From the NCBI RefSeq assembly GCF_026151205.1, contig NC_087072.1:7501-71500 (forward strand): a DNA stretch of 64,000 nucleotides. Reading direction: 5' to 3'. The notes below the pieces were generated by a model. It was not told where the DNA came from. It was given only the letters and a program-made list of their open reading frames with translations, and did no database searches. The position numbers were made by a program, and so were the translations under genes. Source of the DNA: Bolinopsis microptera (lineage: Eukaryota; Ctenophora; Tentaculata; Lobata; Bolinopsidae). Shown piece by piece: positions 657 to 40,873 of the stretch (positions are counted from its first letter, which is position 1; each line of letters begins with the position of its first letter).

Positions 657-1212
657 CTTGTTTCCTCTGGAGCTGCGAGTAGTGAAGCAGTCGATAAAGC
701 TGAGTTCTCTGTCGTTGAACTGCCACTCTGCCCGCTCAGTGAGAACCAACTCTTGTGTCCCATCCTCCTGTGAAGATAAGATGTTATGTTGGGTTCAGAG
801 TCAGCATTTATCAATTTATCAAATATTAACTTAACCTTTTTCAACTTCGACTAGGAACTAAAAAATAAAAATACAATTAATATTTGCAGCCAAGAAGTTG
901 TAAAGACATTACCTTTGTGACAATAGTGTAGCTAGTAACCTAGTAACCAGAAGCTAGTAACCTAGTAACCAGTAGCTAGTCAAGACATTACCTTTGTGAC
1001 AATAGTGTAGCTAGTAACCTAGTAACCAGAAGCTAGTAACCTAGTAACCAGTAGCTAGTAACCTAGTAACCAGTAGCTAGTAAAGACATTACCTTTGTGA
1101 CAATAGTGTAGCTAGGTTCAGGAGGGACAAATGCAAGTTTAGCTGCTATTCTAGACGGTATGGGAGGACAACACAACAAGCAGCAGATGTCTGCGAGGCT
1201 GAACCCGTTCAT
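657..1212 (-). CDS. ABHD17: ABHD17-like serine hydrolase (depalmitoylase), first two coding exons, partial
   Basis: Exon 1 is 1212-1093 (40 codons from ATG) and exon 2 is 767-657 (37 codons). Both are phase 0, with GT donors at 1092 and 656 and an AG acceptor at 768. Exon 1 encodes the ABHD17/FAM108 N-terminus: a Cys cluster (ICCLLCCPP) followed by [19 protein letters not shown]. Exon 2 continues with LTERAEWQ and [12 protein letters not shown], as in the family before the alpha/beta-hydrolase core. In known members the Cys cluster is palmitoylated and targets the enzyme to the plasma membrane and endosomes, where it removes palmitate from proteins such as Ras and PSD-95. The catalytic Ser-Asp-His residues would lie in exons left of the window, so activity cannot be judged. 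A tandem array carries copies of the exon 1 donor. Confidence 0.85.
895..1114. repeat. Splice-donor-containing tandem array beside ABHD17 exon 1
   Basis: Three copies (near 900, 980 and 1081) of a segment holding the last bases of ABHD17 exon 1 plus its GT donor (minus strand), separated by AGCTAGTAACCTAGTAACCAG-type units. Only the 1081 copy joins the full exon; the others are duplicated exon ends lying inside the intron. Confidence 0.9.
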
Positions 1213-2469
1213 ACCACTCATAAATTCATACTTCCAACTTGCGACATAAAATCTAGAATAGAGAGTAGATGTTAAAGTTATATAAAAAACTATAGAAAGT
1301 GCTGTAAAGAATGCTGCAATTAAAATGGTCAGGGAATTCGCAGTTGTCTTTGCAGTAATTATCAATTTCGACGAATGATTTACTACAGGTGACTCAAATC
1401 GAAGTGAATCAAATGACATTGTCCATATTCTACCCTGCAAAATGTGTGAGGCATAACTCTTTAAAAGATACCGGGAAAAACCTAATGAAAGAAGCAGGGT
1501 GCTCAGATGTTTAGATAGAACACCCCTTATTCCTTGTCAATCCAAATGACTTCCGTGTTAGAACCAATATAACAGATATATAGTAATAAATTAATGTTAT
1601 TTTTATACAGCACCCAAAGGTTAAATAATTTAAATTTAACCCTTATGCTCAGCTGTAAATGATACTTAAATTAACGAGAGTGTGCATCTTTGCCTTAGAC
1701 AGAGGTGAAACAAGAAACTGTTCAGAAAACAGGCGTTAATAACTGTAAATAATATCGTGACTAAATAAGGCAGATGCACCTAACAAGTAGGGTTAGCAGG
1801 TTTTCTAACAGAGGACTTGAGGAAAGGATGATGACTGCAAGAAATCACAGTATGAAACTCATCAGCCTATCAAATATAAAAATCAGGATAATAAAAATGA
1901 AATTCCCTAAAATATTAAAAATTCTATAAAAATTCTATAGAAATTCTTTTGACTCCAAATATACAAACAATCTGAATACTCCAATACACAATAAAAATTG
2001 ATTGAAAAAGTTTACTGCAGAACAGTAACTGACGATAAAAATTATATCTGAAAATCCAATGTACAAGAAGAAAACAACAATTTCAAGAAAACAACATACA
2101 GTCATACCAAACAATCTCGGCAACATAATAGTAGAGACGGTGAAATAAAGAGTGGAAAAAAGATGCTCTAGTGATGAGGCATAACTCTTTGAAAGATACC
2201 AGGAAAAACTTAACGAAAGAAGCAGTTTCCAAGACCCAATCTTGATAAAGGTCTCCTTTATTAGAATTTTGTTTTTTTAGTAAAACAAAATGCAGCATAT
2301 GGATGAGACAACCTTACATTAAACATGTTGTGCTCAAATACTGACTGAAGTGCACAAGCAATTATTTAAAGTGTACCACCATATATACCTGAGTGCTGCT
2401 TTCGACACTGTAAAATTGTATACAATATAAAATAGTACAGTAAAATATCTACAAAATTTACATGCAAAT
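1213..2469. other. No gene recognised; 5' flank of the ABHD17-like gene with a dispersed direct repeat
   Basis: AT-rich. A roughly 55-bp segment beginning GAGGCATAACTCTTT occurs near 1450 and, diverged, near 2176 in the same orientation. The 1213-1440 part may hold the ABHD17-like 5' UTR and promoter, but no clear TATA box was identified. Confidence 0.5.
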
Positions 2470-2877
2470 CTAGGAGACCTCAAAGCTCGTCTTCTGGGGG
2501 ATGAGGTTGTAGGAAACGTCTTGCAGTTCAAGATGCTGGGCTGTTGATCTTCCTCTGATTCCCCTCAGTGCAATGAGTGTACTTCTTAACAGATCAAATC
2601 TGAATCGTGTTCTGATATGATTTTTGACTTGGCTCTTGGCTTCTTTTTTGTGGTCAGCTATCATCTCAGAGACACGATCTACAAACACACTGCAGAGCGG
2701 TCCCATACCTCCGGAGGTTGTGAAGACTAGAGGGACAAATGATCCTTTCTCTGACTGAAGTACTCTCTCTTCATACAAATCTTTCTTTTCTTTCTCGTGA
2801 TCTCTATAGATTTTATCTAGTGTATTTGGGTCACAGATAGGATGTGTGACCCTGATGTCAAAGACACTTTTGATCAT
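2470..2877 (-). mobile_element. Transposon-derived C-terminal tail domain, fragment
   Basis: Open frame of 135 codons. It has the pattern FDIRV..P, a charged EKEKKDLYEERVLQ helix, then SFVPLVFTTSGGMGP and an IRTRFRFDLLRSTLIALRG end. This tail is common at the C-terminus of retroelement ORFs in invertebrate, especially cnidarian, genomes; the FDIRV and PLVF blocks resemble a restriction-endonuclease-like fold (inference). It lies head-to-head with the LINE fragment starting about 2880, so the two are separate broken pieces. A relative lies at 6600-6786 on the same strand. Confidence 0.65.
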
Positions 2878-2889: not shown

Positions 2890-5079
2890 AAAATTATTCA
2901 AACAATAACTGGCGGGATTATAGCCTCAGTAAACCACTGCCATGGACTGTATGATGCCTGGGCGAAAGTCAGGAAAGTTAAGTGTAAACAAGGCGAAACT
3001 GACACAAAAGGGGGCACATGCCTGTGTTCTATCTGCTGTAATAAAAGAAACCGTTATGATGACTACAAAGAATATAGAAAGGCTCTAAAAAAGGTTCGTA
3101 AAAAGGCTGTATCTGAATATTATTCTGACAAGTTTCTTGAAACTCAGGGAAACTCCAAGAAAACCTGGGAACTTATAAATAAAATTCGTGGCAAACAGAA
3201 ACGTGATATCAGACCTATATTTACCATAGACAATGAAAAGATAACTAATCGCAGAGTTATAGCGAATGAATTCAATAAGTATTTTGTATCCCTAGCATCT
3301 AACCTTAATGCAGCCTACACAGAACTAGGAGAGATACAAATAAATCAGCTTCCAAGTTTCTGTGACCTCTTACCTAAATCGAATACAGCTAATATATATC
3401 TACATGACTGCTCACCTGAAGAGGTGGCTAAGATCATATCGGAACTTCAGAATGGCAAGGCTAGTGATATACCAGTACATATAGTAAAGGCAGTATCAGG
3501 CATAATTAGCCCACTACTATCGGTTTTGTATAACGAATGTATGCAACAGGGAGTTTTTCCAGACGACCTAAAAGTAGGTAAAATAAGTCCAATATATAAG
3601 AAAGAAAATGCTGAGCTTCTTGAAAATTACAGGCCTATCTCAACCTTAGCGATATTTGGTAAAATACTTGAGAAAATCATATTCTCCAGGCTTTACAGTT
3701 TCTTTCAGTCACAAGGATTATTATATGAAAATCAATATGGCTTCAGAAAAAATCATTCGACAAGCCATGCACTTAACTTCTCTGTCGACTACATTGAAAA
3801 ATCACTAAGAGATAAAAATCATGTACTAGGCATCTTCATTGATTTAAGTAAAGCTTTTGATACAATCTGTCATGATAAACTGCTTAAAAAACTGAATGAT
3901 TATGGAATTCGAGGGACTGCAAATAAATTAATAGCCAGTTATCTCTCTAATAGACAGCAATATGTTTCAGTACTTGGAGAAGAATCCGAAAAACTGTCTG
4001 TTATATTTGGTGTGCCTCAGGGGTCAGTATTAGGTCCCTTGCTTTTCATTATCTACATCAATGAAATATATAGAGTATCAGACCTAGGCAAGTTTATACT
4101 TTTTGCCGATGACACCAACATATTTGTTGTAGATAAATGTATAAAAACACTTTACTGCAAAGCTAACAAAATTCTTAAACTTGTTCATCAGTATATGAAG
4201 AGTAACTTGCTGCATATCAACACAAAGAAATGTTGTTATATCCACTTTAAACCGAACTGTAGAAATGAACCAGATTCAAACACCAATGAATTAGAACTGA
4301 CACTGAATAATATAATAATTAAAAAGGTAGAGGAAACTAAGTTTCTTGGAGTCATTATTGACCAAAAACTGAACTGGGATGCTCACTTAAGAGCGTTAAA
4401 TCGTAAATTGAAATGTGAGATTGGTAGACTATGTGGAATTAGACGCTGTGTACCTAAAAAACTATATAAGGACCTGTACCACACCCTTTTTGAATCACAC
4501 CTATGTTATGGAATATCTGTTTGGGGAGGTGTATCAAATAATAAACTAGAAGCCATATTTAAAACACAAAAGAAATGCATAAGAATTCTCTTTGGTGATA
4601 ATGATGCGTACTTCAATAAGTTCAAAACATGTGCCAGAGTAAGGCCTATCACTAGGGATAAGACCGGTAAAGTTATCAAGCAGATGTTAGGCAAAGATTT
4701 CTTTGAACTAGAACACAGTAAACCAATCTGTAACGAGTATAACTTCCTGACTGTCCACAATCTTCATAAGTTGCACTGTTTACTGGAAATGTTTAAAATT
4801 AATAAGTTCCAATCACCAGTCTCAATGTTCTCTTTATTCAACAGGTCACCAAGACGAGACAACTACTTCATCCCACCCACTCCATCCTCACTATTCATCT
4901 ACCAATCAACCAGTATTTGGAATCACTGCCGTAAGTCAACGAGTGAAATAGACTTCTCCACTCCTATCAGTATATTCAAGAATAATATTAAGAAAGCTTT
5001 GTTAGAACTACAATCTAAATATGACAGACAACTATGGTGCAGTTACAACTTTGATGCAAATGAATTATCATTGAAATAG
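2890..5079 (+). mobile_element. Non-LTR retrotransposon (LINE) reverse transcriptase ORF, 5'-truncated
   Basis: Uninterrupted frame of about 729 codons, open from just after a TAA at 2887. It starts within the linker before the RT, so the N-terminal APE endonuclease is absent. RT motifs in order: NGKASD, PIYKKENAELLENYRPIS, QYGFRKNHST, FIDLSKAFDTICHDKLL, GVPQGSVLGPLLF, LFADDTNIF and KFLGVIIDQKLNW. The C-terminal region ends at a TAG. The motif set fits the Jockey/CR1-L2 side of the LINEs; the exact clade is not resolved. RT catalytic aspartates are intact in FADD. No premature stop or frameshift is seen, so the copy is young, or the frame is preserved by chance. It probably cannot move on its own. 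Confidence 0.92.
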
Positions 5080-8806: not shown

Positions 8807-11156
8807 ATATATGGAACAAATATTTTACGAGTATCACCCATTAAATCACGTTGTGCGCTCCTACTAAATCGCTCGCCCAAATTTTAAGAAAATTCTTGTG
8901 AAAAGGCCCTTTGGGCATGAAAGTGATCTAGATCACTTTTTGGACGCTGATTCCGAATCACCCTTGTAGCGCGATGCGTTACTGTGCCGCGCCGCGCACT
9001 CAATGAGGCTTCTCACAGCTAGATCGGCGAGATGCGCTACTGTGCCGCGCCGAGCTGCCATGAATTGACATCGTCAATTAAGAATTACCCCCATGACGTA
9101 GGGTTAAAATGCTTCCCTGGAGAGTTATGGGCAAAAAACCGTTTTGGTCACGTGACAGGCTAGTAAAATACGATTTCGATTGTTTGTGGCCCGGGTTAGG
9201 GTTAGAGTTGTGGTAATGGTTATGGTTAGCTTCGGGGTTATGGTTAGGGTTGGGATTAGGGTTTATGTAAAACCGTTTTGTACGGCTGCAAAACCATAAA
9301 AACCAAAGTCACGTGAAATTTTTGGGTGAGCGAATTAGTAAGAGCCCACGTTGTGACCCCCACGGTCGTTTCACTATCGTCCTGACGATACAGGGGGAGC
9401 CGCGCACTCGTGTGCGGCGGGTCATACAACGTATGACAAGGTAACGAAAAGGTGGTGCTCAGCCTGTCATTGGCTGCGCCATCGACCATAACTTGAATTG
9501 TTAATGTTTATAGAAATAAATGATTACGCCTGAGCTGCCGCTGGTGTCCAGGTAACCATTTTGTCGACGGATATGTTACAATCTAAATTTCTTCAAAGTA
9601 GTAGTGCGCGCCGCTTGCTTTACTGGGCGGCGCTCAGCCTGTCATTCCGCCAAATCTTTATTATATGTTTATGAACATAATAGCCTGGGGTCCCCAGGTA
9701 ACGCTTGCTTTGAGGCAAGTGATACGAAGTAGCGCGCACTGGTGACTGGGCTAGTCCATTAACAATGGACAGCCATTTTGTGGCTATTTACCGCGAAATT
9801 GTGCGCAGCAAGGTCTTGGTAAGCTATCGCTTTTCCTTTCACATTATTTAGTGCCAGTGGTACTGTACTGGTAAAATTTCTTCAAATTTTAAACCCGTCA
9901 CCAGTCATAAAAATGGCCCTATAATCCACCCCAACATGCACTGTGCGTGGTGAACTTTGTTGTTTGTAATTTAATTGTATGTACAATCATAAAACATTGA
10001 TTTTTAGTGAAATAATTTTTGGTAAACATATCTAATATTGATCATTGATTTATACAAAATATAACAACGAATATTATTAACATAATCATAATTTTTCTCA
10101 TACCATGGACTCAGCACTTATTGCCGAAGTTATACTTGCGTCCCCCCTTACAGTCAACAGTGCTGCTTGAAAAACTACAGCAGTGTTTGCAACTTAAAAA
10201 CTAAGTGAGGTTATCTTAAATCTGACAAAATTGTAACAAAATAATACCGTTAATTCATAATTGGTTTCGGCGTTTCGCAAAATTTATAGTCTATATTCGG
10301 TCTTCTACAAGCACAGAATAAGTAATAACATATACAATATATTACATATATTACACATAAAAAGCTGTGCATAATTCATAATTGATCAGAGTCTAAGTTA
10401 ATGATATGTGACCTAAGGAGTTGAGATGAAGCACTCTAGAACGGCCGAGTTATAGGATGATACTTATAGTTATTAATTATAATAACTTTACTCGCATCTT
10501 CATCGCATACAACAGCAGAGTCCACGTAAAGCCCACTTGGAGTAGTGAACATTCTCGTTGAATATGTCTGAAAAGATTAAGTTATAATACGGGAACAACT
10601 TACATTTCAAGAATACGGCCACAGTAAAACAGCTTGGGGAAAGGGAAATCGCCGAACAGTAAATCGACTATCGAGGTGTACACTGTACGGCAAATGGAGG
10701 GTATGACGCGATCTCAGTCAGATTAAAGTACTCGGGGTAGGGCTTATTGTTTATGGAACTTTATGGTTCACATTACATGGTTTCCTCTCCGCACAGTATT
10801 GGTTCTTCATTAGTGGTAACGGTTCACAGTTATGCACAAACGCTCAAGTAAGGGGGAGATGAACGAAGTAACGAGTCTAACAAGCTTTTCGAGATGAAAA
10901 ACCCAATTCTAAGCCTCTCAAAGGATCTTGTGATATCAAACAAAATATTTACTGGGCGGCGCTCAGCCTGTCATTCCGCCGAATATTTATTTATTACTGT
11001 CACCAAGATGTAATTAGATCGAACGCAGAAATTAGATCGAACAGGTTCGATCTAGGAATTAGATGGATATTTTCACAAATTTTTGGGAAATGGGTTTTAA
11101 TGTTTATTTAAATAAGAAGTTAGAGTGTTTTAGAAAACAGTGTGTGAAGAGCTTAC
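8807..11156. other. Gene-poor region with dispersed repeats
   Basis: No gene recognised. Contents: a duplicated CTACTGTGCCGCGCCG block near 8975 and 9035; degenerate telomere-like repeats at about 9190-9265; two copies of the dispersed GC-rich motif (9619-9651, 10948-10980); and repeated AACCGTTTTG...CACGTGA pieces near 9137 and 9270-9315. The part nearest 11157 lies downstream of the dynein-like exon in that gene's sense and may be its intron. Confidence 0.5.
9190..9265 (+). repeat. Degenerate interstitial telomere-like repeat
   Basis: Interrupted GGGTTAGGGTTAGAG, GGTTATGGTTAG and GGGATTAGGGTTTATG units. The metazoan telomere unit is TTAGGG; here only a few units match exactly, so this is an interstitial or chance-expanded stretch. 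Confidence 0.5.
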
Positions 11157-11307
11157 CTAAGAAGAAGAGAGGTTTGTCGTCCATAGCACGTGTAGAGTAG
11201 ACGGGGCACTGGTACAGACAGTGGGTCCTGTCCGTCTGACTCGGTCCTGCTGTCACGTGGATTACCGGGAGCTGGGTGAACTTGGACTTGGGGGCCACAT
11301 CCTGCAT
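11157..11307 (-). CDS. Single exon resembling a dynein heavy chain C-terminal region
   Basis: Minus strand, acceptor CAG at 11308-11310 and donor GTAAGC at 11156-11151. The 151-nt exon reads in one frame with no stop. It contains QLPVIHVTA followed by HCLYQCPVYSTR and DKPLFFLG. Axonemal dynein heavy chains have a (M/L)PV(I/V) stretch then LY.CP(V/I)Y.T near their C-terminus, which is the basis of the call. Neighbouring exons were not recognised: upstream ones would lie beyond 14.4 kb, downstream ones left of 11157. The intron before it is filled by the 11.3-14.4 kb array, each unit of which carries a copy of this exon's acceptor and first bases. An isolated or duplicated exon of another protein cannot be excluded. 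Confidence 0.45.
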
Positions 11308-14300
11308 CTGGGGGGACTTAATATTTAGTGTTAGTTAAGGGGGTAGTGTTAGAGGTAGTGTTAGGGGGCCACATCCTGCATCTGTGGGGACTTAATATTT
11401 AGTGTTAGTTGAGGGGTAGTGTTAGAGGTAGTGTTAGGGGGCCACATCCTGCATCTGTGGGGACTTAATATTTAGTGTTAGTTAAGGGGTAGTGTTAGAG
11501 GTAGTGTTAGGGGGCCACATCCTGCATCTGTGGGGACTTAGTATTTAGTGTTAGTTGAGGGGGCCACATCCTGCATCTGTGGGGACTTAATATTTAGTGT
11601 TAGTTGAGGGGTAGTGTTAGTTGAGGGGGCCACATCCTGCATCTGTGGGGACTTAATATTTAGTGTTAGTTGAGGGGGTAGTGTTAGGGGGCCACATCCT
11701 GCATCTGTGGGGACTTAATATTTAGTGTTAGTTGAGGGGGTAGTGTTAGAGGTAGTGTTAGGGGGCCACATCCTGCATCTGTGGGGACTTAGTATTTAGT
11801 GTTAGTTGAGGGGGCCACATCCTGCATCTGTGGGGACTTAATATTTAGTGTTAGTTGAGGGGTAGTGTTAGTTGAGGGGGCCACATCCTGCATCTGTGGG
11901 GACTTAATATTTAGTGTTAGTTGAGGGGTAGTGTTAGTTGAGGGGGCCACATCCTGCATCTGTGGGGACTTAATATTTAGTGTTAGTTGAGGGGTAGTGT
12001 TAGTTGAGGGGGCCACATCCTGCATCTGTGGGGACTTAATATTTAGTGTTAGTTGAGGGGTAGTGTTAGTTGAGGGGGCCACATCCTGCATCTGTGGGGA
12101 CTTAATATTTAGTGTTAGTTGAGGGGTAGTGTTAGTTGAGGGGGCCACATCCTGCATCTGTGGGGACTTAATATTTAGTGTTAGTTGAGGGGTAGTGTTA
12201 GTTGAGGGGGCCACATCCTGCATCTGTGGGGACTTAATATTTAGTGTTAGTTGAGGGGTAGTGTTAGTTGAGGGGGCCACATCCTGCATCTGTGGGGACT
12301 TAATATTTAGTGTTAGTTGAGGGGTAGTGTTAGAGGGGGCCACATCCTGCATCTGTGGGGACTTAATATTTAGTGTTAGTTGAGGGGTAGTGTTAGAGGG
12401 GGCCACATCCTGCATCTGTGGGGACTTAATATTTAGTGTTAGTTGAGGGGTAGTGTTAGAGGTAGTGTTAGGGGGCCACATCCTGCATCTGTGGGGACTT
12501 AATATTTAGTGTTAGTTGAGGGGTAGTGTTAGTTGAGGGGGCCACATCCTGCATCTGTGGGGACTTAATATTTAGTGTTAGTTGAGGGGTAGTGTTAGGG
12601 GGCCACATCCTGCATCTGTGGGGACTTAATATTTAGTGTTAGTTGAGGGGTAGTGTTAGAGGGGGCCACATCCTGCATCTGTGGGGACTTAATATTTAGT
12701 GTTAGTTGAGGGGTAGTGTTAGAGGTAGTGTTAGGGGGCCACATCCTGCATCTGTGGGGACTTGATATTTAGTGTTAGTTGAGGGGGTAGTGTTAGAGGG
12801 CCACATCCTGCATCTGTGGGGACTTGATATTTAGTGTTAGTTGAGGGGGTAGTGTTAGAGGTAGAATTAGGGGGCCACATCCTGCATCTGTGGGGACTTA
12901 GTATTTAGTGTTAGTTGAGGGGGTAGTGTTAGAGGTAGTGTTAGGGGGCCACATCCTGCATCTGTGGGGACTTAATATTTAGTGTTAGTTGAGGGGGTAG
13001 TGTTAGAGGTAGTGTTAGGGGGCCACATCCTGCATCTGTGGGGACTTAATATTTAGTGTTAGTTGAGGGGGCCACATCCTGCATCTGTGGGGACTTAATA
13101 TTTAGTGTTAGTTGAGGGGGTAGTGTTAGAGGTAGTGTTAGTAACTTGGACTTGGGGGCCACATCCTGCATCTGTGGGGACTTAATATTTAGTGTTAGTT
13201 GAGGGGGTAGTGTTAGAGGTAGTGTTAGGGGGCCACATCCTGCATCTGTGGGGACTTAATATTTAGTGTTAGTTGAGGGGTAGTGTTAGAGGTAGTGTTA
13301 GGGGGCCACATCCTGCATCTGTGGGGACTTAATATTTAGTGTTAGTTGAGGGGGTAGTGTTAGAGGTAGTGTTAGGGGGCCACATCCTGCATCTGTGGGG
13401 ACTTAATATTTAGTGTTAGTTGAGGGGTAGTGTTAGAGGTAGTGTTAGGGGGCCACATCCTGCATCTGTGGGGACTTAATATTTAGTGTTAGTTGCGGGG
13501 GTAGTGTTAGAGGTAGTGTTAGGGGGCCACATCCTGCATCTGTGGGGACTTAATATTTAGTGTTAGTTGAGGGGGTAGTGTTAGAGGTAGTGTTAGTTGA
13601 GGGGGCCACATCCTGCATCTGTGGGGACTTAATATTTAGTGTTAGTTGAGGGGGTAGTGTTAGAGGTAGTGTTAGGGGGCCACATCCTGCATCTGTGGGG
13701 ACTTAATATTTAGTGTTAGTTGAGGGGTAGTGTTAGAGGTAGTGTTAGGGGGCCACATCCTGCATCTGTGGGGACTTAATATTTAGTGTTAGTTGAGGGG
13801 GTAGTGTTAGAGGTAGTGTTAGGGGGCCACATCCTGCATCTGTGGGGACTTAATATTTAGTGTTAGTTGAGGGGTAGTGTTAGAGGTAGTGTTAGTTGAG
13901 GGGTAGTGTTAGAGGTAGAATTAGGGGGCCACATCCTGCATCTGTGGGGACTTAATATTTAGTGTTAGTTGAGGGGTAGTGTTAGAGGTAGTGTTAGTTG
14001 AGGGGTAGTGTTAGAGGTAGAATTAGGGGGCCACATCCTGCATCTGTGGGGACTTAATATTTAGTGTTAGTTGAGGGGTAGTGTTAGAGGTAGTGTTAGT
14101 TGAGGGGTAGTGTTAGAGGTAGAATTAGGGGGCCACATCCTGCATCTGTGGGGACTTAATATTTAGTGTTAGTTGAGGGGTAGTGTTAGAGGTAGTGTTA
14201 GTTGAGGGGTAGTGTTAGAGGTAGAATTAGGGGGCCACATCCTGCATCTGTGGGGACTTAATATTTAGTGTTAGTTGAGGGGTAGTGTTAGAGGTAGTGT

Positions 14301-14440
14301 TAGTTGAGGGGTAGTGTTAGAGGTAGAATTAGGGGGCCACATCCTGCATCTGTGGGGACTTAATATTTAGTGTTAGTTGAGGGGGTAGTGTTAGAGGTAG
14401 TGTTAGTTGAGGGGGTAGTGTTAGAGGTAGAATTAGCAAT
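11290..14440. repeat. Large minisatellite made of a splice acceptor plus exon start, more than 40 copies
   Basis: Units of roughly 50-110 bp share GGGGGCCACATCCTGCATCTG followed by TGGGGACTTAATATTTAGTG and variable numbers of GGTAGTGTTAGA blocks. On the minus strand each unit reads as a pyrimidine-poor intron end, CCCCACAG, then ATGCAGGATGTGGCCCC, which are the first bases of the exon ending at 11307. Copies are highly uniform, implying recent expansion. Long open frames inside it are a by-product of periodicity. Confidence 0.97.
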
Positions 14441-28883: not shown

Positions 28884-31800
28884 GGAACTGCCGGACGGGA
28901 CGGACTGGTGGAGAATGTTGTCTCTGTTCGTGATCCAGCTGCTCAGATACCAGTGTTTCAGTCTCTGGTGGCTGATATACTACGTCATCCTGCCCTACCT
29001 CTACAAGTACTCCGAGTACAAGTGGCCCACCAACTGTCACGTGGCTTACCTCATGATAGCGCTCTTTACTCAGGTACTTACCTCATGATAGCGCTCTTTA
29101 CTCAGGTACTTACCTCATGATAGCGCTCTTTACTCAGGTACTTACCTCATGATAGCGCTCTTTACTCAGGTACTTACCTCATGATAGCGCTCTTTACTCA
29201 GGTACTTACCTCATGATAGCGCTCTTTACTCAGGTACTTACCTCATGATAGCGCTCTTTACTCAGGTACTTACCTCATGATAGCGCTCTTTACTCAGGTA
29301 CTTACCTCATGATAGCGCTCTTTACTCAGGTACTTACCTCATGATAGCGCTCTTTACTCAGGTACTTACCTCATGATAGCCCTCTTTACTCAGGTACTTA
29401 CCTCATGATAGTGCTCTTTACTCAGGTACTTACCTCATGATAGCGCTCTTTACTCAGGTACTTACCTCATGATAGCGCTCTTTACTCAGGTACTTACCTC
29501 ATGATAGCGCTCTTTACTCAGGTACTTACCTCATGATAGCGCTCTTTACTCAGGTACTTACCTCATGATAGCGCTCTTTACTCAGGTACTTACCTCATGA
29601 TAGCGCTCTTTACTCAGGTACTTACCTCATGATAGCGCTCTTTACTCAGGTACTTACCTCATGATAGCGCTCTTTACTCAGGTACTTACCTCATGATAGC
29701 GCTCTTTACTCAGGTACTTACCTCATGATAGCGCTCTTTACTCAGGTACTTACCTCATGATAGCGCTCTTTACTCAGGTACTTACCTCATGATAGCGCTC
29801 TTTACTCAGGTACTTACCTCATGATAGCGCTCTTTACTCAGGTACTTACCTCATGATAGCGCTCTTTACTCAGGTACTTACCTCATGATAGCGCTCTTTA
29901 CTCAGGTACTTACCTCATGATAGCGCTCTTTACTCAGGTACTTACCTCATGATAGCGCTCTTTACTCAGGTACTTACCTCATGATAGCGCTCTTTACTCA
30001 GGTACTTACCTCATGATAGCGCTCTTTACTCAGGTACTTACCTCATGATAGCGCTCTTTACTCAGGTACTTACCTCATGATAGCGCTCTTTACTCAGGTA
30101 CTTACCTCATGATAGCGCTCTTTACTCAGGTACTTACCTCATGATAGCGCTCTTTACTCAGGTACTTACCTCATGATAGCGCTCTTTACTCAGGTACTTA
30201 CCTCATGATAGCGCTCTTTACTCAGGTAATTTTTTTTTTCTTCTTTTTTTTTCTTCTTCTCATATGCAACCTACTAAAACCAATGGAGCCCTCCCCGGGG
30301 TCATTCCTCTCAGGTAATTTCTTTTGAAACTTCCATCAAATAATGCACAATTATACAACAAGGGAACCTGATTGAGATCAATGGTGACGAAGAATTTTTA
30401 GGCTGGGAAAATGCTCGGACTAATGATATCACTGACATTAATTTAATCGTTTCGCTGACATTAGCGCACAAGTTAACGGATTTACGGAATTATCTGGAAG
30501 CTGATATTCAACAACTTTTTCTATTGATATTCAAGACCAAATAGCAAAGAAAAATATTAAAAAGTCCACAAATAAAATTTGGATGCTGCATAACCAGGAG
30601 AGAGGTGACAACAATAAGAGATATAATAGAACCTTGCAAACTAATTATATCAATTATATACTAATTATATTATATATAATTAGTATATAATTGATATAAT
30701 TAGTTTGCAAGGTTCTAACATATCTCTTATTGTTGTCTTTTGATATATTATATCAAATATATACTAATTATATCAATTAAACCACTTACCACCGACCGAT
30801 TTAGAAAACCTTTATCATTTGGCTTCGTCAGAGTTTTCTCGGCACTTTACCGAAAAAAAAACCAGCCACGTAACTCTTACCGTTTTCTTGATTAGGCCGC
30901 TCGGAAATTACACGCGCACACACACACACACTCTGAGATTATTGTTTAAGATACTTTTTGCAAAAATACTTTTTGCAAAAATACCATTTTTTGTCATAAA
31001 CAACCTTATCGTGTCTGCCAAACGGGCATCACAAGTCAACTGGGTCAATAAAGAATAATAATTTATTATAATAATTTATTATAATAATAATATATTATAT
31101 TATAATATAATATATAATAATAATGATAATTTAGTTGTTCTACTCTGTGGCATCTAGATTACGAGTTACTGCTGACTTCATGCAATATTCCCAATATTCT
31201 ACTGACTAAATACTAATTACACAGACAATTTAGGTTTAGTTGACCCGTTTAAATGATAGCAAATTTTCCGGATCTTAATTTTGATTTGAAACTTTCATCA
31301 AATAATACAGAAATATGCAACATGGAAACTTAAATGAAATCATAACGACAAAGAATGTTTATGCTGCGAAAATGCTTGGAGTTGGACTGGCATTTTACTG
31401 TAATATATAGTTAATTGATAATAGTAAATAGTAATTATAACCATTAAGTTTACCATCATGCTCCAAAACCGTTTATGTTTCAGATTTCGCCAAAAAAATC
31501 AGGAAAAAAGTGTCCATCAAATTTATGTTTAAGTCTATAATACAAATCTTTACAATCCAAATATCGCCTATTCCAAATTCACTAGATAACTACATTTTAT
31601 GTTTAAGTCTATACAAATCTTTACAGTCCAGATATTATCGCCTATTCCAAATTCACTAGATAACTACATTTTCATACACTACTAGTTACCATAGTTACAC
31701 TACTAGTTACCATAGTTACACTACTAGTTACCATAGTTACACTACTAGTTACCATAGTTACACTACTAGTTACCATAGTTACGCTACTAGTTACCATAGT

Positions 31801-34800
31801 TACACTACTAGTTACCATAGTTACACTACTAGTTACCATAGTTACACTACTAGTTACCATAGTTACACTACTAGTTACCATAGTTACACTACTAGTTACC
31901 ATAGTTACACTACTAGTTACCATAGTTACACTACTAGTTACCATAGTTACACTACTAGTTACCATAGTTACACTACTAGTTACCATAGTTACACTACTAG
32001 TTACCATAGTTACACTACTAGTTACCATAGTTACACTACTAGTTACCATAGTTACACTACAAATTCACTAGACACCATATAAGTGTTGTCATGGTTACCA
32101 CTAGATAACTACATTTTCAGATTGAATACCCGGAGACGGAACACGTGGACGACTCTATCATCTCCCACTCCGCATTCCGGCACCTTGATGCGGACAGGAG
32201 GGCTCTGAAGCCGCTCCGGTTCGCTACCATGCTGAAACTACTGATCAGGAACAGCACTGTGGACCAGGAGATACCGCCCTCCCACAGTTAGTCATACGCT
32301 TCCTCAAACTCTTCAAATAGCAGTCGGTTAACCACAAAAATTAACATTTAATGACAGGGTTTTCTAGAGGGCACCCACCCCCCCCCCCCCCCCAAAATAA
32401 CGCTTGTTTCCCCTCCCCTCCCCCCAAAGTAACGCTTGTTTCCCCTCAGAGCACCTGAAATAACCCTTGTTTCCCCTCAGAGTACCTGAAATAACCCTTG
32501 TTTCCCCTCAGAGTACCTGAAATAACCCTTGTTTCCCCTCAGAACCCCCAATGCAACGCTTGTTTCCCCTCAGAGCACCTCAAATAACGCTTGTTTCCCC
32601 TCAGAGCACCTCAAATAACGCTTTTTTCCCCTCAAAACCCGCCCCCCCCCCCCCCCAAATAACGCTTGTTTCAGAGCACCTGAAGCCGATGGCAGTGTTA
32701 AAGAGGATCTGCTCCCAGACCTGGGTGCCGGAACTGTGTCTGTCCACCCCGGAGAAGTTAGTGTCTATCAACTACCTGGCAGATAAGGAGATTACACCCC
32801 ACAACGCTCAGCTCCTGCTCCATCTCATTTGTAATCCCCAATCTACTGACATGCCTTCTACTGACCCTACCGAACTTATCGGCAACATCATCAAGGTTTA
32901 TACTTTAAACTTAGTTACCTAGTAACCTAGTAACTCAGTAACCTAGTAACTCAGTAACCTAGTAACCTAGTAACCTAGTAACCTAGTAACCTAGTTACTA
33001 TGAAGAAGTAGTAACATCTCATTTGTAATCCTCAATCTACTGACATGCCTTCTACTGACCCTACCGAGCTTATCGGAAACATCATCAAGGTTTATACTTT
33101 AAACTTAGTAACCTAGTAACCTAGTAACCTAGTAACTCAGTAACCTAGTAACCTAGTTACTATGAAGAAGTAGTAACATCTCATTTGTAATCCCCAATCT
33201 ACTGACATGCCTTCTACTGACCCTACCGAGCTTATCGGAAACATCATCAAGGTTTATACTTTATAATATCTTGTTTTAGGTTTGTCATATTGTGACCTCT
33301 ACATCAAGATTCGAGAAGGTTACTGGGTCTATATATATAAAGAAGACAACCAAAATGTTTGCAACGGCCTTATTATATTATTATTAATATACAACTTATG
33401 AAGCGTTAGCAACACACGAAATTGCCAATAATTCGATATGTTTCACGATAACTCATAATATTTCAATTTGTCAATAATCGCGGTGGTTACGAGCTCGAAA
33501 AAAAGTCGACTAGCATACTAATAGTAGTGAATTACAAGGATATTTGAGTCTACATCATCTTCAATAAATTTATAATATACTTATATAATATAGGTGCGGC
33601 CAACTAAGCTAAGTAAAGTAGTAATATCCTGTATTAGCTTGGTAATATCCTGTTAAAATCGTGTAACCTGTTGTACCCCCCCCCCCCCCCGAACCTGTTG
33701 TACCCCCCCCCAACCTGTTGTACCCCCCCCCCCCCCAACCTGTTGTACCCCCCCCCCAACCTGTTGTATCCCCCCCCCAACCTGTTGTATCCCCCCCCCC
33801 AACCTGTTGTATCCCCCCCCCCCCAACCTGTTGTACCCCCCCCCCCAACCTGTTGTATCCCCCCCAACCTGTTGTATCCCCCCCCCCCAACCTGTTGTAT
33901 CCCCCCCCCAACCTGTTGTATCCCCCCCAACCTGTTGTATCCCCCCCCCCCCCCCCCCAAACCTGTAGTATCCCCCCCCCCCCCCCCCCCCCCCAACCTG
34001 TTGTACCCCCCCCCCCCCCAACCTGTTGTACCCCTCAGAATATGGACATGTGGACCATGAGGTCAGCTCACCTGAAAGTAAGGTTGATAAGAGTAAGGAG
34101 CAAGGAGAATAACGAGGGGGAGGAGGAGGAGGCGGCTACCCTCAAACTCATCACTGACGCTGTCGTCTGTACTCTGGGACATCTCCTCACCGAGGTAGGG
34201 TTTAAGGGAACAATAATAATTTTAATATAGTTGCCTGGTAACCTAGTAACCTAGTAACCCAGCAACTCTATTAACCTACTAACTCAATAACTAATTTAAA
34301 TAGTAATAATATAATCAGTAGTCAATGACTAGACATGGTTATTGCGATGAAAAGTTACATGGAATGATGGCGTCTGGGCTTGGGAGCAGCTCACACTCAT
34401 AGTACATTACATTAATGCCCTCTGAATACCATCAGGCTAGCTAAAGAAATGAATATGTTAATAGTAGTAGTATTAGTAGTAGTAGTAGTTATAATAGTAG
34501 TAGTAGTGTGTAAAATCCGGATTGGAGTATTATTTATGAGTCGTATGGTTGTAATGTATTCTGTGTAAAATGATCTTTATCCCGGTTGTTGCGACAAGTA
34601 AAAATGCTCTTATTAGGGAAAGGAGATTACTCGACGTTTCAATGTAACTACATCGTATTCATAAACTCAAATTATTTGTTATATAGTAGTGTTGAAAGTA
34701 CTACTAGTAGTAGTAGTGTCACGTGACATCTAACCTGGTTCCCTACAGATAGCACGCGGAGGGTGTAAGAACGCAACTCTCTGGCTGCTCCCCACATTCA

Positions 34801-34848
34801 TCAACAAGCTTCACGACCAGGTCAAGGAGCACCTCATCAAGTGGCTAG
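28884..34848 (+). CDS. Five internal exons of a gene tentatively resembling Mediator subunit 12
   Basis: Exons 28884-29073, 32121-32286, 32675-32895, 34039-34194 and 34749-34848 have AG acceptors, GT donors and mutually consistent phases (ending 0, 1, 0, 0, 1), about 277 residues. Exon 1 encodes hydrophobic FSLWWLIYYVILPYLYKYSE. Exon 3 encodes VLKRICSQTWVPELCLSTPE and HNAQLLLHLICNP. Exon 4 opens with NMDMWTMRSAHLKVRLI, has an acidic insert, then ITDAVVCTLGHLL. Exon 5 has NATLWLLPTFINKLHDQV. The W-T-x-R...L-x-L block, a helical segment, then LWLLP...I.KL resembles the C-terminal half of MED12, a kinase-module subunit of the nuclear Mediator complex. I am unsure of this; a different helical-repeat protein is possible. 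The 5' and 3' ends were not found. Nearly every exon edge is joined to a tandem array. Confidence 0.7.
29042..30228. repeat. 32-bp array of exon end plus splice donor, about 37 copies
   Basis: Unit CTCATGATAGCGCTCTTTACTCAG|GTACTTAC (bar marks the splice boundary). The first copy is the real 3' end of the exon at 28884-29073; all later copies lie in the intron. Each unit has a pyrimidine-rich CTCTTTACTCAG resembling an acceptor, directly followed by GTACTT resembling a donor. Copies are almost identical. The array ends in T/C-rich sequence at 30229. Confidence 0.97.
30229..31671. other. Intron with a long palindrome, a diverged duplicate and AT-rich repeats
   Basis: Includes a roughly 110-bp segment near 30310-30425 with a diverged direct copy near 31280-31390 (shared TTTGAAACTT/CATCAAATAAT and GAAAATGCT), the palindrome at 30607-30737, an ACACAC run, and TTATAATAAT repeats (31050-31125). 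No exon seen. Confidence 0.55.
30607..30737. repeat. 131-bp near-perfect palindrome
   Basis: Arms of about 62 bp beginning GACAACAATAAGAGATAT and AT-rich towards the centre, with very few mismatches. It could form a cruciform, or be a foldback/MITE-like element. No clear target duplication beyond AT-rich sequence. Confidence 0.85.
31672..32062. repeat. 21-bp minisatellite upstream of a splice acceptor, about 18 copies
   Basis: Unit CTAGTTACCATAGTTACACTA. It is bracketed by copies of CACTAGATAACTACATTTT (near 31580, 31660 and 32100), the last of which runs directly into the acceptor TTTTCAG at 32120. The 21-bp period gives a spurious open frame on the minus strand. Confidence 0.95.
32287..32674. 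repeat. Acceptor-containing array before MED12-like exon 3
   Basis: About eight units of TAACGCTTGTTTCCCCTCAG followed by AGCACCTGAA or AGTACCTGAA, separated in places by C-runs. The last, real copy is TTTCAG then AGCACCTGAAGCC. The decoy units contain the exon's first bases but run into TAA in the reading phase, so use of a decoy would truncate the protein. Confidence 0.9.
32896..33262. repeat. Two extra copies of the end of MED12-like exon 3 with its donor
   Basis: The last ~80 nt of exon 3 (from CATCTCATTTGTAATCC to ATCATCAAG|GTTTATACTTT) recur at about 33018-33105 and 33177-33262, separated by GTAACCTAGTAACC repeats and an ACTATGAAGAAGTAGTAA spacer. The copies differ from the exon at a few bases. 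They are exon fragments sitting inside the intron. Confidence 0.95.
33670..34030. repeat. Poly-C / AACCTGTTGTA array ending at a splice acceptor
   Basis: About 17 units of AACCTGTTGTAT or AACCTGTTGTAC separated by C-runs of 7 to about 20. The last unit runs straight into CCCCTCAG, the acceptor of exon 34039-34194, so the array forms an extended polypyrimidine tract. Run lengths are likely unreliable in the assembly. Pro/Cys-rich and Gly-rich open frames here are artefacts. Confidence 0.95.
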
Positions 34849-35100
34849 GTTAGTTCGTTAAAACGGGGCGTGGTCCGGACTCTAGTCCGGGACTCTAGTT
34901 CGGGACTCTAGTCCGGGACTCTAGTTCGTGACTCTAGTTCGTGACTCTAGTTCGTGACTCTAGTTCGTGACTCTAGTTCGTGACTCTAGTCCGGGGCTCT
35001 AGTTCGGGACTCTAGTCCGGGACTCTAGTTCGGGACTCTAGTCCGGGACTCTAGTTCGTGACTCTAGTCCGTGACTCTAGTCTGGGACTCTGGTCCGAAT
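34849..35100. repeat. 15-bp array after the donor of MED12-like exon 5
   Basis: Units GGGACTCTAGTTCGT/GGGACTCTAGTCCGG, about 16 copies, beginning about 25 bp downstream of the donor GTTAGT at 34849. Confidence 0.93.
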
Positions 35101-36549: not shown

Positions 36550-39500
36550 TTATCTGACAGAACTTTCGCCTGTGTCGTCCAACTTAATCTCCTTCAAACT
36601 CAACCGTTTCTGCTTCTCCGCGGTAATCTTGGAGAAGAAGATCCCGTACCCGAAGTAGATTATGAGCCCGACAATGCAGTAGATAACCAGCTGTTTCAAG
36701 GCTACCACCTCCAGATGGAAGAGAAGCAGGAGGTTTACAAAGACTGAGAACCCCTGAACGAAGGGCTTTCCCGGGCTTTTAAAAGACAGTGTCCCGTCCT
36801 CCTCTTGTGCCTTTAAAGGAATCTTGCATCTGATGAGAGTGAGACTGACTATCATGATGATAGCAAGGACCACCTCTGAAACAATCACTGCAGTGGACTG
36901 TTCGAGGAATGCTGTGAGGAATGCCAACACGATGGTGGCCAGCAGGAAGACACACATGAAGATGATGAAGAGATGTTTTCTGGCGTGAGTCTTCTCTGCG
37001 GTCAGTGGAGTTTCCTCGGTTTCTTCCATGTCTGGGTCCGTTAGGTCGTAGGAGAGGATCATTACTGCTAACGCTGTGATCACAAACACTGTCAGGGTTC
37101 CACCAGAGATCTGGAGAGGTTTACGTTAGCAGGTTACTAGGTTACCAGGTTACTAGGTTACCAGGTTTCTAGGTTACCAGGTTACTAGGTTAGCAGGTTA
37201 CTAGGTTACCAGGTTACTAGGTTACTAGGTTACCAGGTTACTAGGTTAGCAGGTTACTAGGTTACCAGGTTAGCAGGTTACTAGGTTACCAGGTTACTAG
37301 GTTAGCAGGTTACTAGGTTGCCAGGTTACCAGGTTACTAGGTTTACGTTAGTTACAATATCTTAACATATGGTGGCAATCAATAATCAATATCCATCATG
37401 TTTATAGAAATATGGATCATGGACGGAAATATTCTATGGTCAAAAATCAAGATTACAAGTAAGATAAAATCATCTTATTATCTCATAAACAACTCTAAAG
37501 TAACCTCAAGTAAGTAACTCACCATATGACTGAGGGTATCGAACTCGTACACGATACTGGACAGCATCCCCACCACACTGCACACCACCACGTTCCACAT
37601 GGGTACCTGAGTCCTCTTGTACACGCTGTTCAGGAAGGGGAACAGTAGGCCGTCCTCCGCCACGGAGTACACTACGCGGACTACTGTAGTTACAGTGCAG
37701 AGTCCGCAGGAGAATACTGTGAAGATCAGCCCGGCTGTTACTACGTACTGCGGTAGTGTCAGTCCTGGGGGAGACAGGTTCAGTTACTATGGTTACTCTG
37801 TAATTCACATGTTGGTAGTGTCAGTCCTGGGGGAGACAGGTTCAGTTACCATGGTTACTCTGTAATTCACATGTTGGTAGTGTCAGTCCTGGGGGAGACA
37901 GGTTCTGTTACCATGGTTAATCTGTAATTCACATGTTGGTAATGTCAGTCCTGGGGGAGACAGGTTCAGTTACCATGGTTACTCTGTAATTCACATGTTG
38001 GTAGTGTCAGTCCTGGGGGAGACAGGTTCAGTTACCATGGTTAATCTGTAATTCACATGTTGGTAATGTCAGTCCTGAGGGAGACGGGTTCAGTTACCAT
38101 GGTTACTCTGTAATTCACATGTCAGTCCTGGGGGAGACAGGTTCAGTTACCATGGTTACTCTGTAATTCACATGTTGGTAATGTCAGTCCTGGGGGAGAC
38201 AGGTTCAGTTACCATGGTTAATCTGTAATTCACATGTCAGTCCTGAAGGAGACGGGTTCAGTTACCATGTTTACTCTGTAATTCACATGTCAGTCCTGAA
38301 GGAGACGGGTTCAGTTACCATGGTTACTCTGTAATTCACATGTCAGTCCTGGGGGAGACAGGTTCAGTTACCATGGTTACTCTGTAATTCACATGTTGGT
38401 AATGTCAGTCCTGAGGGAGACAGGTTCAGTTACCATGGTTACTCTGTAATTCACATGTCAGTCCTGAAGGAGACGGGTTCAGTTACCATGGTTACTCTGT
38501 AATTCACATGTCAGTCCTGGGGGAGACAGGTTCAGTTACCATGGTTACTCTGTAATTCACATGTTGGCAATGTCAGTCCTGGGGGAGACAGGTTCAGTTA
38601 CCATGGTTAATCTGTAATTCACATGTTGGTAATGTCAGTCCTGGGGGAGACAGGTTCAGTTACCATGGTTACTCTGTAATTCACATGTCAGTCCTGAGGG
38701 AGACGGGTTCAGTTACCATGGTTACTCTGTAATTCACATGTCAGTCCTGAGGGAGACGGGTTCAGTTACCATGGTTACTCTGTAATTCACATGTCAGTCC
38801 TGAGGGAGACGGGTTCAGTTACCATGGTTACTCTGTAATTCACATGTCAGTCCTGAAGGAGACGGGTTCAGTTACCATGGTTACTCTGTAATTCACATGT
38901 CAGTCCTGAGGGAGACAGGTTCAGTTACCATGGTTACTCTGTAATTCACATGTCAGTCCTGAGGGAGACAAGTTCAGTTACCATGGTAACTCTGGGGGAG
39001 ACAGGTTCAGTTACTCTGTAATTCACATGTTGGGACTGTGTTTCCAATGGAATATTTGAGTCTGCAGGTTCAAGGTTGGTGATGTATGTATAGTGTGCAA
39101 TGTGTATACTTATTACTAATATAGAGATAAGCTTACCTTTACGTTTGAGAGATCCAATAAGACCTGTGTTTCCCCCGACCTCATACCACGGTTCAATGAA
39201 AGCGATGGAGAAAGCTGTTACCACGTACAGAACCAGCACTATCAGGAAGGAGCCCATGGTAGCCCGAGGGAGATCTCGTTTAGGGTCGACGGACTCCTCC
39301 GCTAGAGTCACAACTGACTCCAGTCCCACGAATGCGAAGAAAGCAGTCCCCGCTCCCGTCATGATGCCGCTGAACCCGAACGGAGCGAACCCCGTCCTTC
39401 CGTCCGCTGGATTAACCACTCTGGAGAGGTTAGCAACGTCTCCATTCACCAGCGCCACTATGTTGAAGGTTAGCAGAGATATCGCAGAGACCCCAGCTAT

Positions 39501-40873
39501 GGCAATGTTCAGATAGGACACTGTCTTTATTCCTGCCATGTTGATAGCCATGAAGAGGAGCATGATACCAATAGCGATCAGATCTGTGTGTAGCAACCAG
39601 TCAGGAAAGTTTGAGCTCTGCCATTCTTGGACAGTCCCATTAATGAGGAACTTGTCGATGTTGTCAGACAGTCCCAGGGTTAACATTGGAGCCTGTATGA
39701 TCAGCTCCCCGATCAGGAAGAAACCGGAGATGGCAGCTGCGAGTTCTCCCATTGAGAAGTAAGTGTAAACGTAGGAGGAACCAGTGCAGGAGTACCTGGT
39801 GTTAAAATATTGTGAGGAATCATGTGACCTAGTAACCTAGTAACTTAGCAACCTAGTAACCTAGTATTTAATAACCTAGTAACTTAGTAACCTAGTAACT
39901 CAGTAACCTAGTAACCTAGTAACTATGAAGAAGTAAGTATAAACGTAGGAGGACCCAGTGCAGGAGTACCTGATGTTAAAATATTGTGAGGAATCATGTG
40001 ACCTAGTAACCTAGTAACCTGGTAACTTAGCAACCTAGTAACCTAGTATTTAGTAACCTAGTAACCTAGTAACCTAGTAACTCAGTAACCTAGTAACCTA
40101 GTAACTATTAAGAAGTAAGTATAAACGTAGGAGGACCCAGTGCAGGAGTACCTGATGTTAAAATATTGTGAGGAATCATGTGACCTGCTCGAACAGCTTT
40201 AGTCAAGTTTAAAATATATTACAGAATGGGACAGAATATAATAGATAAATATACTTTTTTTTTTTCTTTTTTTTTTTAAGAGAGGCTGGGCCTGGTTGGC
40301 CCACGAGAGGATAAATATACTGTACTAGAATATGATAAAATGTTTCGCCGATTTCATTATAATTTCAAGTTAAATGTAAGATGTGAGTTGTTGTTTCTTC
40401 AAACGCCTACCTGGCAGCAAGATCACTGTAGCATAAAACGGACAAGGCAGCAGCTAGACCGGATATCAGATAGCTGATACAGGTGGCAGGTCCTGCCATC
40501 GACTGCACAATCGCTGGGGTTATCACAAATATCCCTGCAAAATGATTTGTTGTTTTAATTAATTAATTAATTAATTAAAACAACACCTTGTTCATCTGCA
40601 GGAAACATTTTTACATTTCACGGATCAACTTTTATTTATATACATATCACTTCCTGTATAAGCGTTATTAAAGTGAGTCTGCAGTAACTAAAGTAAGTGG
40701 TAAGAACCTGTGAACCTAGTAACCTAGTTACCTGCTCCGAGCATGTGGGCAATACCCTGAACAATAAGAGGGAACAGAGTCAGACATCTCTTGAGCTCTG
40801 TCTTTCCTCCTGTGTCTAACTTCACTTGGAACAGTCTCTCTAATACACCAGGTGCTCTGAAGTTGTAACCCAT
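36550..40873 (-). CDS. SLC7-family cationic amino-acid transporter, five exons, apparently complete
   Basis: Exons on the minus strand: 40873-40732 (ATG), 40534-40411, 39795-39137, 37764-37523 and 37110-36550 (stop). They total 1,728 nt, an exact frame for 575 residues, with consistent GT-AG boundaries. N-terminus: LERLFQV, RCLTLFPLIVQG, HMLGAGIFVITPAIV (the helix 1 substrate-binding loop of APC transporters), then CYSDLAARYSCTGSSYVYTYFSMGEL. Middle: FGFSGIMTGAGTAFFAFVGLE, DPKRDLPRATMGS. Later: VVRVVYSVAEDGLLFPFLNSV. C-terminus: PGKPFVQGFSVFVNLLLL and YFGYGIFF. These are the hallmarks of CAT-type SLC7 carriers, plasma-membrane proteins that move arginine, lysine and ornithine; substrate choice here is unproven. 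The C-terminal tail is short compared with vertebrate CATs (about 620-650 residues). Three of the four introns carry tandem arrays. Confidence 0.93.
37125..37345. repeat. GTTACTAGGTTACCAG array in SLC7 intron 4
   Basis: About 14 units of AGGTTACTAGGTTACC/AGC, bracketed by GGTTTACGTTAG at both ends (37119 and 37341). The left bracket is the sequence immediately upstream (minus sense) of the acceptor of the last exon. Confidence 0.93.
37752..39015. repeat. Acceptor-containing array in SLC7 intron 3, more than 20 copies
   Basis: Units of about 52 or 62 bp: GTCAGTCCTGGGGGAGACAG, GTTCAGTTACCATGGTTACTC, TGTAATTCACATG, with or without TTGGTAAT. On the minus strand each unit contains TCTCCCCCAG|GACTGACA, the acceptor and first bases of exon 37764-37523. 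Variants with TCCTGAGG or TCCTGAAG destroy or alter the pyrimidine tract. Confidence 0.96.
39755..40195. repeat. Acceptor-containing duplications in SLC7 intron 2
   Basis: Three copies (39755, 39933 and 40113) of a segment holding the first ~40 nt of exon 39795-39137 (AAACGTAGGAGGA.CCAGTGC) plus its acceptor and about 40 nt of intron (GTTAAAATATTGTGAGGAAT), separated by GTAACCTAGTAACTTAGC repeats. Only the 39755 copy is continuous with the exon. Confidence 0.95.

Follow-up and report, generated by a model that had tools for sequence, protein, structure and literature searches.

Tandem arrays in introns of the ctenophore Bolinopsis microptera span splice junctions and have structural features of amphioxus mirages

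In amphioxus, tandem repeats termed mirages have units of 10-160 bp that span a 5' or 3' splice junction (PMC3087553). Their mechanism has been called unclear and a part in intron gain has been proposed; their copy number is haplotype-variable, normal splicing was undisturbed by reverse-transcription polymerase chain reaction, and somatic length instability is described for Adh3 (PMC3087553; PMC3902484). We examined arrays of this kind in the ctenophore Bolinopsis microptera, in a stretch of 64,000 nucleotides (C1:7501-71500 on contig C1, NC_087072.1; hereafter the window, whose positions are given without a contig name) of an assembly of 264.65 Mb in 232 contigs. Tandem arrays were called with Tandem Repeats Finder (TRF), and splice junctions were assigned from protein (joined open frames, PDB and Pfam matches), not RNA. 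A first-pass annotation, made from the letters of the window, had reported at least seven arrays that repeat a splice junction together with bordering exon bases, and all seven (7/7) were confirmed, in genes on both strands. These arrays have the structural features of mirages, so that the annotation's remark that no named system matches does not hold (PMC3087553). We consider it probable that the arrays are mirages in the following sense: ordinary small tandem duplications, tolerated since the surplus copies are spliced out, and then amplified.

The Bolinopsis arrays and the amphioxus mirages have in common a unit of tens to ~160 bp that spans a 5' or 3' junction, copy numbers that are unequal between gene copies, and the repetition of AG/GT signals within the intron. 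The Bolinopsis arrays differ in belonging to another phylum, in the number of junctions hit (12/35), in their 8-bp compound units and in visible breakpoint signatures; copies number up to 83, compared with 6 and 3 in the amphioxus globin cases. Other described systems were more distant. Human internal tandem repeats at exon-intron boundaries in segmental duplications share the expansion of a boundary minisatellite that alters gene structure, but involve novel introns and retained exonic repeats, whereas the Bolinopsis arrays are intronic and leave the coding sequence unchanged (PMC2812944). Intron gain by tandem genomic duplication shares a tandem duplication with a splice-like site, but here existing introns enlarge and the duplicated site does not form both intron ends (PMC3443670; PMC4974935). 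The direct repeats of Daphnia neointrons, which derive from staggered breaks (PMC4202315), and the direct repeats of 4-30 bp found at intron borders in many taxa (PMC11782384) are also repair-born and lie in or near introns, but are short and do not form long arrays over established junctions. No ctenophore report of junction-spanning arrays was found among the matches listed from the open-licence literature.

In each of the seven window arrays the repeat unit straddles the exon-intron border, with an indel beside the junction at the MED12 exon 3 acceptor. The MED12/SLC7 block of the window has a second copy on C1, and over both copies repeated donors were found at MED12 exon 1, MED12 exon 3, ABHD17 exon 1 and SLC7 exon 4 (second copy), and repeated acceptors at the dynein-like exon, MED12 exon 3, MED12 exon 4 (second copy), SLC7 exon 3 and SLC7 exon 4. 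Units are mostly 31-162 bp long and reach 180-182 bp at SLC7 exon 3. The features of the window are as follows, a caret marking the splice junction:

903..1115, minus strand: ABHD17-like exon 1 donor array (TRF), 3 copies of GTCACAAAG^GTAATGTC separated by an 8-bp CTAGTAAC-type tract
11290..14436, minus strand: dynein-like acceptor arrays, TRF periods 49-147 bp
28884..29073, plus strand: MED12-like exon 1 (numbered among the exons within the window), from the joined open frame and splice sites
29045..30228, plus strand: MED12 exon 1 donor array, TRF 32 bp x 37.0, unit of 29 exon bases plus GTA
32121..32286, plus strand: MED12-like exon 2, joined open frame
32395..32674, plus strand: MED12 exon 3 acceptor array, TRF 31 bp x 7.7 at 32395-32634, copies with CCCCTCAG^AGCACCT
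32675..32895, plus strand: MED12-like exon 3, PDB 8tq2_C match over the exon 3-4 junction
32821..33263, plus strand: MED12 exon 3 donor array, 3 compound units of exon end, donor and AACCTAGT tract
33665..34034, plus strand: C-run array (TRF), stopping 4 bp short of the MED12 exon 4 acceptor
34039..34194, plus strand: MED12-like exon 4, joined frame and PDB match
34749..34848, plus strand: MED12-like exon 5, joined open frame
34873..35097, plus strand: 13/26-bp array beginning 24 bp past the MED12 exon 5 donor; near, not spanning
36562..37110, minus strand: SLC7 exon 5, Pfam AA_permease_C, joined frame
37125..37343, minus strand: GTTACCAG/GTTACTAG array, 14 bp off the SLC7 exon 5 acceptor; near, not spanning
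37523..37764, minus strand: SLC7 exon 4, Pfam and joined frame; donor present once here and four times in the second copy
37755..38994, minus strand: SLC7 exon 4 acceptor array (S4), 53 bp x ~21, unit with 8-13 exon bases
39137..39795, minus strand: SLC7 exon 3, Pfam and joined frame
39751..40186, minus strand: SLC7 exon 3 acceptor array (S3; TRF), 3 compound 182-bp units with AACCTAGT tract
32908-33157, 37125-37343 and 39827-40105: tracts of the 8-bp AACCTAGT type

Junctions were counted with 10 exon and 10 intron bases as query unless another length is named. The ABHD17-like exon 1 donor has exact copies at 905, 984 and 1085 (n = 3, 17-base word); position 657 was also tried as the junction of this array and was rejected as the wrong exon edge, present in a single copy. 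At the dynein-like acceptor, 43 near-copies (at most 2 mismatches) were counted within 11290-14436, the majority reading CCCCACAG^ATGCAGGATGTGGCCCCC and the exon-proximal copy CCCCCCAG^. The MED12 exon 1 donor is present in 36 exact junction copies (10+9 bases) and the exon 3 donor in 3. Array copies of the MED12 exon 3 acceptor read CCCCTCAG^AGCACCTGAA, and an ungapped test sees only one copy there because the exon-proximal copy lacks CCCCT. For the SLC7 exon 4 acceptor, TRF called 20.8 copies at 37819-38994, with the exon-proximal junction at 37764/37765, and 13 junction copies were counted at up to 2 mismatches and 18 at up to 3; the SLC7 exon 3 acceptor has 3 copies at up to 2 mismatches. 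Junction-spanning arrays make up the major part of some introns and fill them with decoy sites, which bears out the earlier suggestion that they are sources of intron growth and of such sites. The same annotation had described further arrays as abutting a junction. This applies to the arrays at 33665-34034, 37125 and 34873, which lie 4, 14 and 24 bp away, but the array at 31522-32060 ends 60 bp from its junction and is near only.

When joined at the exon-proximal copies, MED12 exons 1-5 and SLC7 exons 3-5 each form a single open frame in both gene copies. MED12 matched PDB chain 8tq2_C (E 3e-8) in an alignment that crosses the exon 3-4 junction, whose donor is repeated, and SLC7 exons 3, 4 and 5 match Pfam amino-acid permease models. 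The frame that joins exons 1 and 2 of the ABHD17-like gene is likewise open, and is the one support for the putative name ABHD17. For the dynein-like exon, the best match (E 0.008) was to a 4,730-residue chain with the entry name CFAP57, followed by outer-arm dynein heavy chains (E 0.076), and the assignment of this exon to dynein is weak.

The window segment 22403-58851 (plus strand), a block of 36 kb, has its counterpart at C1:750677-785086 in the same assembly, and the two may be alleles, paralogs or the product of an assembly artefact. Eight exons compared between the copies are 95.8-100% identical. Codon differences in MED12 comprise 17 synonymous and 1 nonsynonymous, those in SLC7 30 and 1 (47 and 2 in total). 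Array copy number differs strongly between them (counts at up to 2 mismatches, window first): the MED12 exon 1 donor is present 36 and 25 times, the MED12 exon 3 donor 3 and 16 times (15 of the latter exact), the SLC7 exon 4 donor 1 and 4 times, the SLC7 exon 4 acceptor 13 and 6 times, and the SLC7 exon 3 acceptor 3 and 2 times. The widest difference was noted for the MED12 exon 4 acceptor, present once in the window and 83 times in the second copy, where a 34-bp unit spans it. Copy numbers that differ widely between two copies of one gene are what turnover of the minisatellite type would lead to. Both block edges sit at tandem arrays, and a 28-bp array at the block edge occupies 0.7 kb in the window (21702-22402) and ~12 kb at C1 ~738.2-750.7 kb; the window sequence outside 22403-58851 had no collinear match within C1:710-820 kb. 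A large insertion with many open reading frames (ORFs) at ~44930-57197 is absent from the second copy, and its integrase-, ATPase-, protease- and capsid-like ORFs are presumably of the Maverick/Polinton type. Reverse-transcriptase-like ORFs, as we take them to be from their translations, lie at 2890-5079 and 41150-42586, the second with a presumed GIY-YIG-like end. Runs of exactly 5,000 N were also noted at C1:2501-7500, directly before the window, and at C1:786875-791874, close to where the second copy ends; they may be gaps.

Repeated junctions were also encountered beyond this block. Of 35 junctions examined in this part of C1, a hand count that includes the indel case found 12 repeated in one gene copy or more: 4/10 in MED12, 3/8 in SLC7, 2/8 in an SLC7 paralog, 1/4 at locus L039, 1/2 in the dynein-like gene and 1/3 in ABHD17. 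In the SLC7 paralog (locus L040), the exon 1 donor is present in ~30 copies, and the exon 5 acceptor has a single duplication in which 9 bases, CTAACTGAT, are inserted, both halves of the insert matching nearby sequence; this single duplication is an early state. At L039, the acceptor of a probably coding exon lies inside an array of 82 bp x 42. The L039 exon pair Mx/My was tried as the 3' part of MED12 and rejected, as the two share no common frame; Mx had no PDB match at E <= 1, with a query that also included residues past Mx. Contig C12 has a 2OG-Fe(II)-oxygenase-like gene (Pfam E 1.3e-8) whose donor is present 3 times, and a virilizer homologue at locus L025 on contig C3 (PDB E 2.8e-5) carries a decayed two-copy acceptor duplication. 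In that gene an 8-bp tract starts 3 bases inside the intron that follows one donor, and likewise after another likely donor. Codon-score exon calling outside the window served only to find candidates; L025 was chosen for its 8-bp tract, and is thus a non-random sample, and L043 for a kinase. The features of the virilizer homologue are:

1474-1775 and 2397-2435 (L025, C3 ~11.5 Mb): decayed acceptor duplication and minisatellite tract by a donor

Tandem arrays cover ~20% of the window and 2-100% of 11 ten-kb stretches of C1:710-820 kb, compared with 0-11% in seven gene-centred stretches elsewhere (L042-L048), so that this part of C1 is unusually array-rich. The 8-bp minisatellite family (AACCTAGT / AGGTTACT) was found on many contigs, including C1, C2, C3, C4 and C7, and at loci L017, L018 and L023-L028. 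Its unit contains AGGT on one strand and therefore reads as a series of donor-like sites, and in several introns the tract begins within a few bases of a donor. Two further repeats were noted: interstitial telomere-like GGGTTA repeats at 9193-9263, and a short tandem array at L045 9813-9895, seemingly within a coding exon of a gene that we assume to be ORC5-like, an adjacent exon of which weakly matches Pfam ATPase_2 (E 0.0024).

The proposed origin of the arrays would begin with error-prone break repair or template switching that leaves a tandem duplication of ~30-180 bp including an exon edge and its splice site. Staggered-break repair is a known origin of small tandem duplications (PMC5730883). 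Breakpoints show short matches of 8 bases at ABHD17, 6 at the 2OG-oxygenase-like gene, 7 at SLC7 exon 3 and 4 at SLC7 paralog exon 1, and matches of 0-1 base at the MED12 exon 1, MED12 exon 3 and SLC7 exon 4 donors. A single base is inserted at the MED12 exon 4 acceptor, and the SLC7 paralog exon 5 acceptor carries the nine-base insertion composed of neighbouring words. Such mixed signatures are in keeping with end joining or template switching. Compound units would form when the widespread 8-bp AACCTAGT-type minisatellite fuses with the edge of the exon whose junction it adjoins, in some cases through a few matching bases. Selection would not remove the duplicate if the exon-touching copy splices correctly and the other copies leave with the intron; an intact exon-proximal site would leave the message unchanged and the remaining copies intronic. 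Translation continued into the MED12 exon 1 array runs straight into stops, so that use of an inner donor would probably be harmful or lead to decay. Slippage or unequal exchange would then amplify and homogenise the duplicate, as in any minisatellite. The single open frame in both gene copies with its mostly synonymous differences, the unequal arrays at shared junctions and the once-duplicated paralog acceptor favour this reading. Neutral tolerance and minisatellite dynamics would suffice for persistence of the arrays; we infer the repair pathway, the neutrality and the sole use of the exon-proximal site.

A per-base test compared junction-centred 20-mers that have a near-copy within 3 kb with intron-internal 20-mers. 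Junctions were repeated in 4/18 cases in window MED12/SLC7 (5/18 if the exon 3 acceptor with its indel is counted), in 6/15 in the second copy and in 2/8 in the SLC7 paralog, compared with 59%, 67% and 75% of intron-internal positions. Counts were 1/4 at L039, 1/4 for the other window junctions (dynein 1/2 and two ABHD17 sites, the true array donor not being among them) and 1/22 on other chromosomes, where intron-internal recurrence was 16% (six introns). Per base, junctions are not favoured over the intron interior, and the expectation that repeat units overlap junctions more often than shuffled positions failed at this level. Duplication that does not target splice sites would leave no per-base excess.

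Several points weigh against reading the arrays as ordinary duplications that were simply tolerated. In a per-array test, each array is counted once and its unit is placed uniformly over array-free introns plus exon edges. Over all arrays, 10 of 24 span a junction (4.4 expected; P = 0.002): the window gave 5/13 (1.9 expected; P = 0.013), the window with arrays new in the second copy 7/18 (2.8 expected; P = 0.006), and other genes, new to the first-pass annotation, 3/6 (1.6 expected; P = 0.17). A strict set, with the indel case taken as not spanning and the two-copy case dropped, gave 8/23 (4.0 expected; P = 0.017), and units of up to 60 bp gave 6/19 (2.15 expected; P = 0.008). Over all arrays, doubling the tolerance of spanning events brought P to 0.057 and halving it to 0.00002. 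Non-spanning arrays also lie nearer junctions, at a mean relative distance of 0.29 versus 0.5 (n = 14; P = 0.003). Three of these 14 (34239, 40700 and the L025 donor) were picked by eye, and the TRF-called arrays that remain when they are dropped gave 0.35 (n = 11; P = 0.04). Array-free intron lengths and distances in both tests were estimated by hand. Both tests omit arrays whose intron is not bounded on both sides, namely window 28600, 34873 and 35651; second copy 761042, 771843 and 772842; L039 6624, 8104, 9174 and 9849; L040 511; L043 5522, 5664, 5908, 8977 and 9638; and L045 3727, 7929, 8438 and 9813. Five of the omitted arrays lie at most 50 bp from a junction (34873, 761042, 771843, L039 6624 and L045 3727). 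A C-run of at least 4 in the last 20 intron bases was found in 4/7 array acceptors and 0/25 others (P = 0.001), or 3/6 and 0/24 without the two L039 exons (P = 0.005); the array acceptors without a run are the MED12 exon 3 exon-proximal copy, SLC7 exon 3 and SLC7 paralog exon 5. The L039 exons were omitted from the per-array test, and L025 was absent from the per-base, per-array and C-run tests. These results hint at a junction-specific bias that a neutral origin does not contain. Two limits of the neutral reading's own support stand on the same side: breakpoint matches were judged by eye, with no model of chance, at arrays other than those of the dynein-like exon, the acceptors of MED12 exon 3 and SLC7 exon 4, and L039; and sole use of the exon-proximal site is a presumption.

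Array-free introns are short here, so that chance alone predicts several spanning arrays, and the approximately twofold per-array excess is suggestive, coming from small, post hoc tests, chiefly of the same window that gave rise to the idea. The non-chance link claimed in the first-pass annotation is thus only partly upheld, since the per-base and per-array levels disagree. This evidence bears in opposite directions on two alternatives. If splice junctions were mutational hotspots, at which C-rich pyrimidine tracts (with G-runs opposite) or another feature stall replication or break, then the per-array excess, its sharpening when spanning events are half as tolerated, the crowding of non-spanning arrays near junctions and the C-runs would all follow; but the genes new to the annotation show no clear excess, the strict sets are weaker, doubled tolerance takes P above 0.05, no per-base excess is seen, intron lengths are hand-estimated, and the C-run link is post hoc, the run being absent from 3/7 array acceptors and possibly a result of the array process. 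We regard a hotspot as unlikely, although junctions may carry a modest added liability, possibly where the pyrimidine tract is C-rich, and acceptors with C-runs may be fragile sites. It is somewhat more doubtful still that exon-intron boundaries, above all C-run acceptors, are preferred birthplaces of minisatellites in this lineage; if true, junction-specific duplication would keep lengthening introns and adding decoy splice sites genome-wide. At the other extreme, chance juxtaposition, with arrays filling most of every intron and junctions being nothing special, agrees with intron-internal recurrence of 59-75% against 22-40% at junctions. The twofold excess and the cases on two other contigs, one where arrays are sparser, speak against it, and we hold it to be highly improbable.

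Two further explanations place the source of the copies elsewhere. Transcription-linked intermediates (R-loops, lariats, cDNA or template switching on RNA) could produce them, as donors and acceptors are both hit in protein-coding genes on both strands, and 3/6 donor units have more G than C on the sense strand, clearly so in SLC7 paralog exon 1 and SLC7 exon 4. Exon and intron bases are continuous within the units, however, which means that lariats or spliced cDNA, both proposed by the first-pass annotation, were not their source. Sense-strand GC skew is negative in 10/13 units, clearly in 7 (below -0.1), with donors split 3 and 3; an excess of C over G is the opposite of the R-loop preference, partly owing to pyrimidine tracts, and gives no support to an R-loop origin. 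Array density is also equal where no gene was identified, such as at L034, which is array throughout, and such intermediates seem a very unlikely origin. It is about as improbable as mere chance that the introns were gained through tandem duplication of AGGT-holding exon segments or through introner-like elements, the array being the founding remnant. Several units contain CAG^GT, and tandem duplication is accepted as a way in which introns are gained (PMC3443670; PMC4974935). The MED12 and SLC7 introns nevertheless have acceptors of their own, such as ATTTTCAG^ATTG for MED12 intron 1, and not a duplicated donor; no duplicated AGGT serving as both donor and acceptor was encountered, the ends of the MED12 and SLC7 introns being distinct sequences. 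No introner-type spread was seen for the MED12 exon 1 unit, the only unit searched singly, which matched only its two gene copies in an assembly search that skipped very common words. Units of other genes seem unrelated, the 8-bp tract aside, and this widespread tract lies within introns, unlike an introner with splice sites at its ends.

A duplication process that seeks out junctions is therefore possible but unproven, and the tolerated and amplified small duplication described above is the reading we prefer. Two diverged gene copies together with a single fresh duplication form a natural series that leads from a first duplication to an 83-copy array. If the junction bias is true, it would offer a simple mutational path to longer introns and new splice options. 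The arrays are also a hazard for annotation, as they can produce false exons and wrong junctions. Mirages are seemingly no peculiarity of cephalochordates, with arrays that are probably of this kind in the ctenophore lineage, which is distant from amphioxus.

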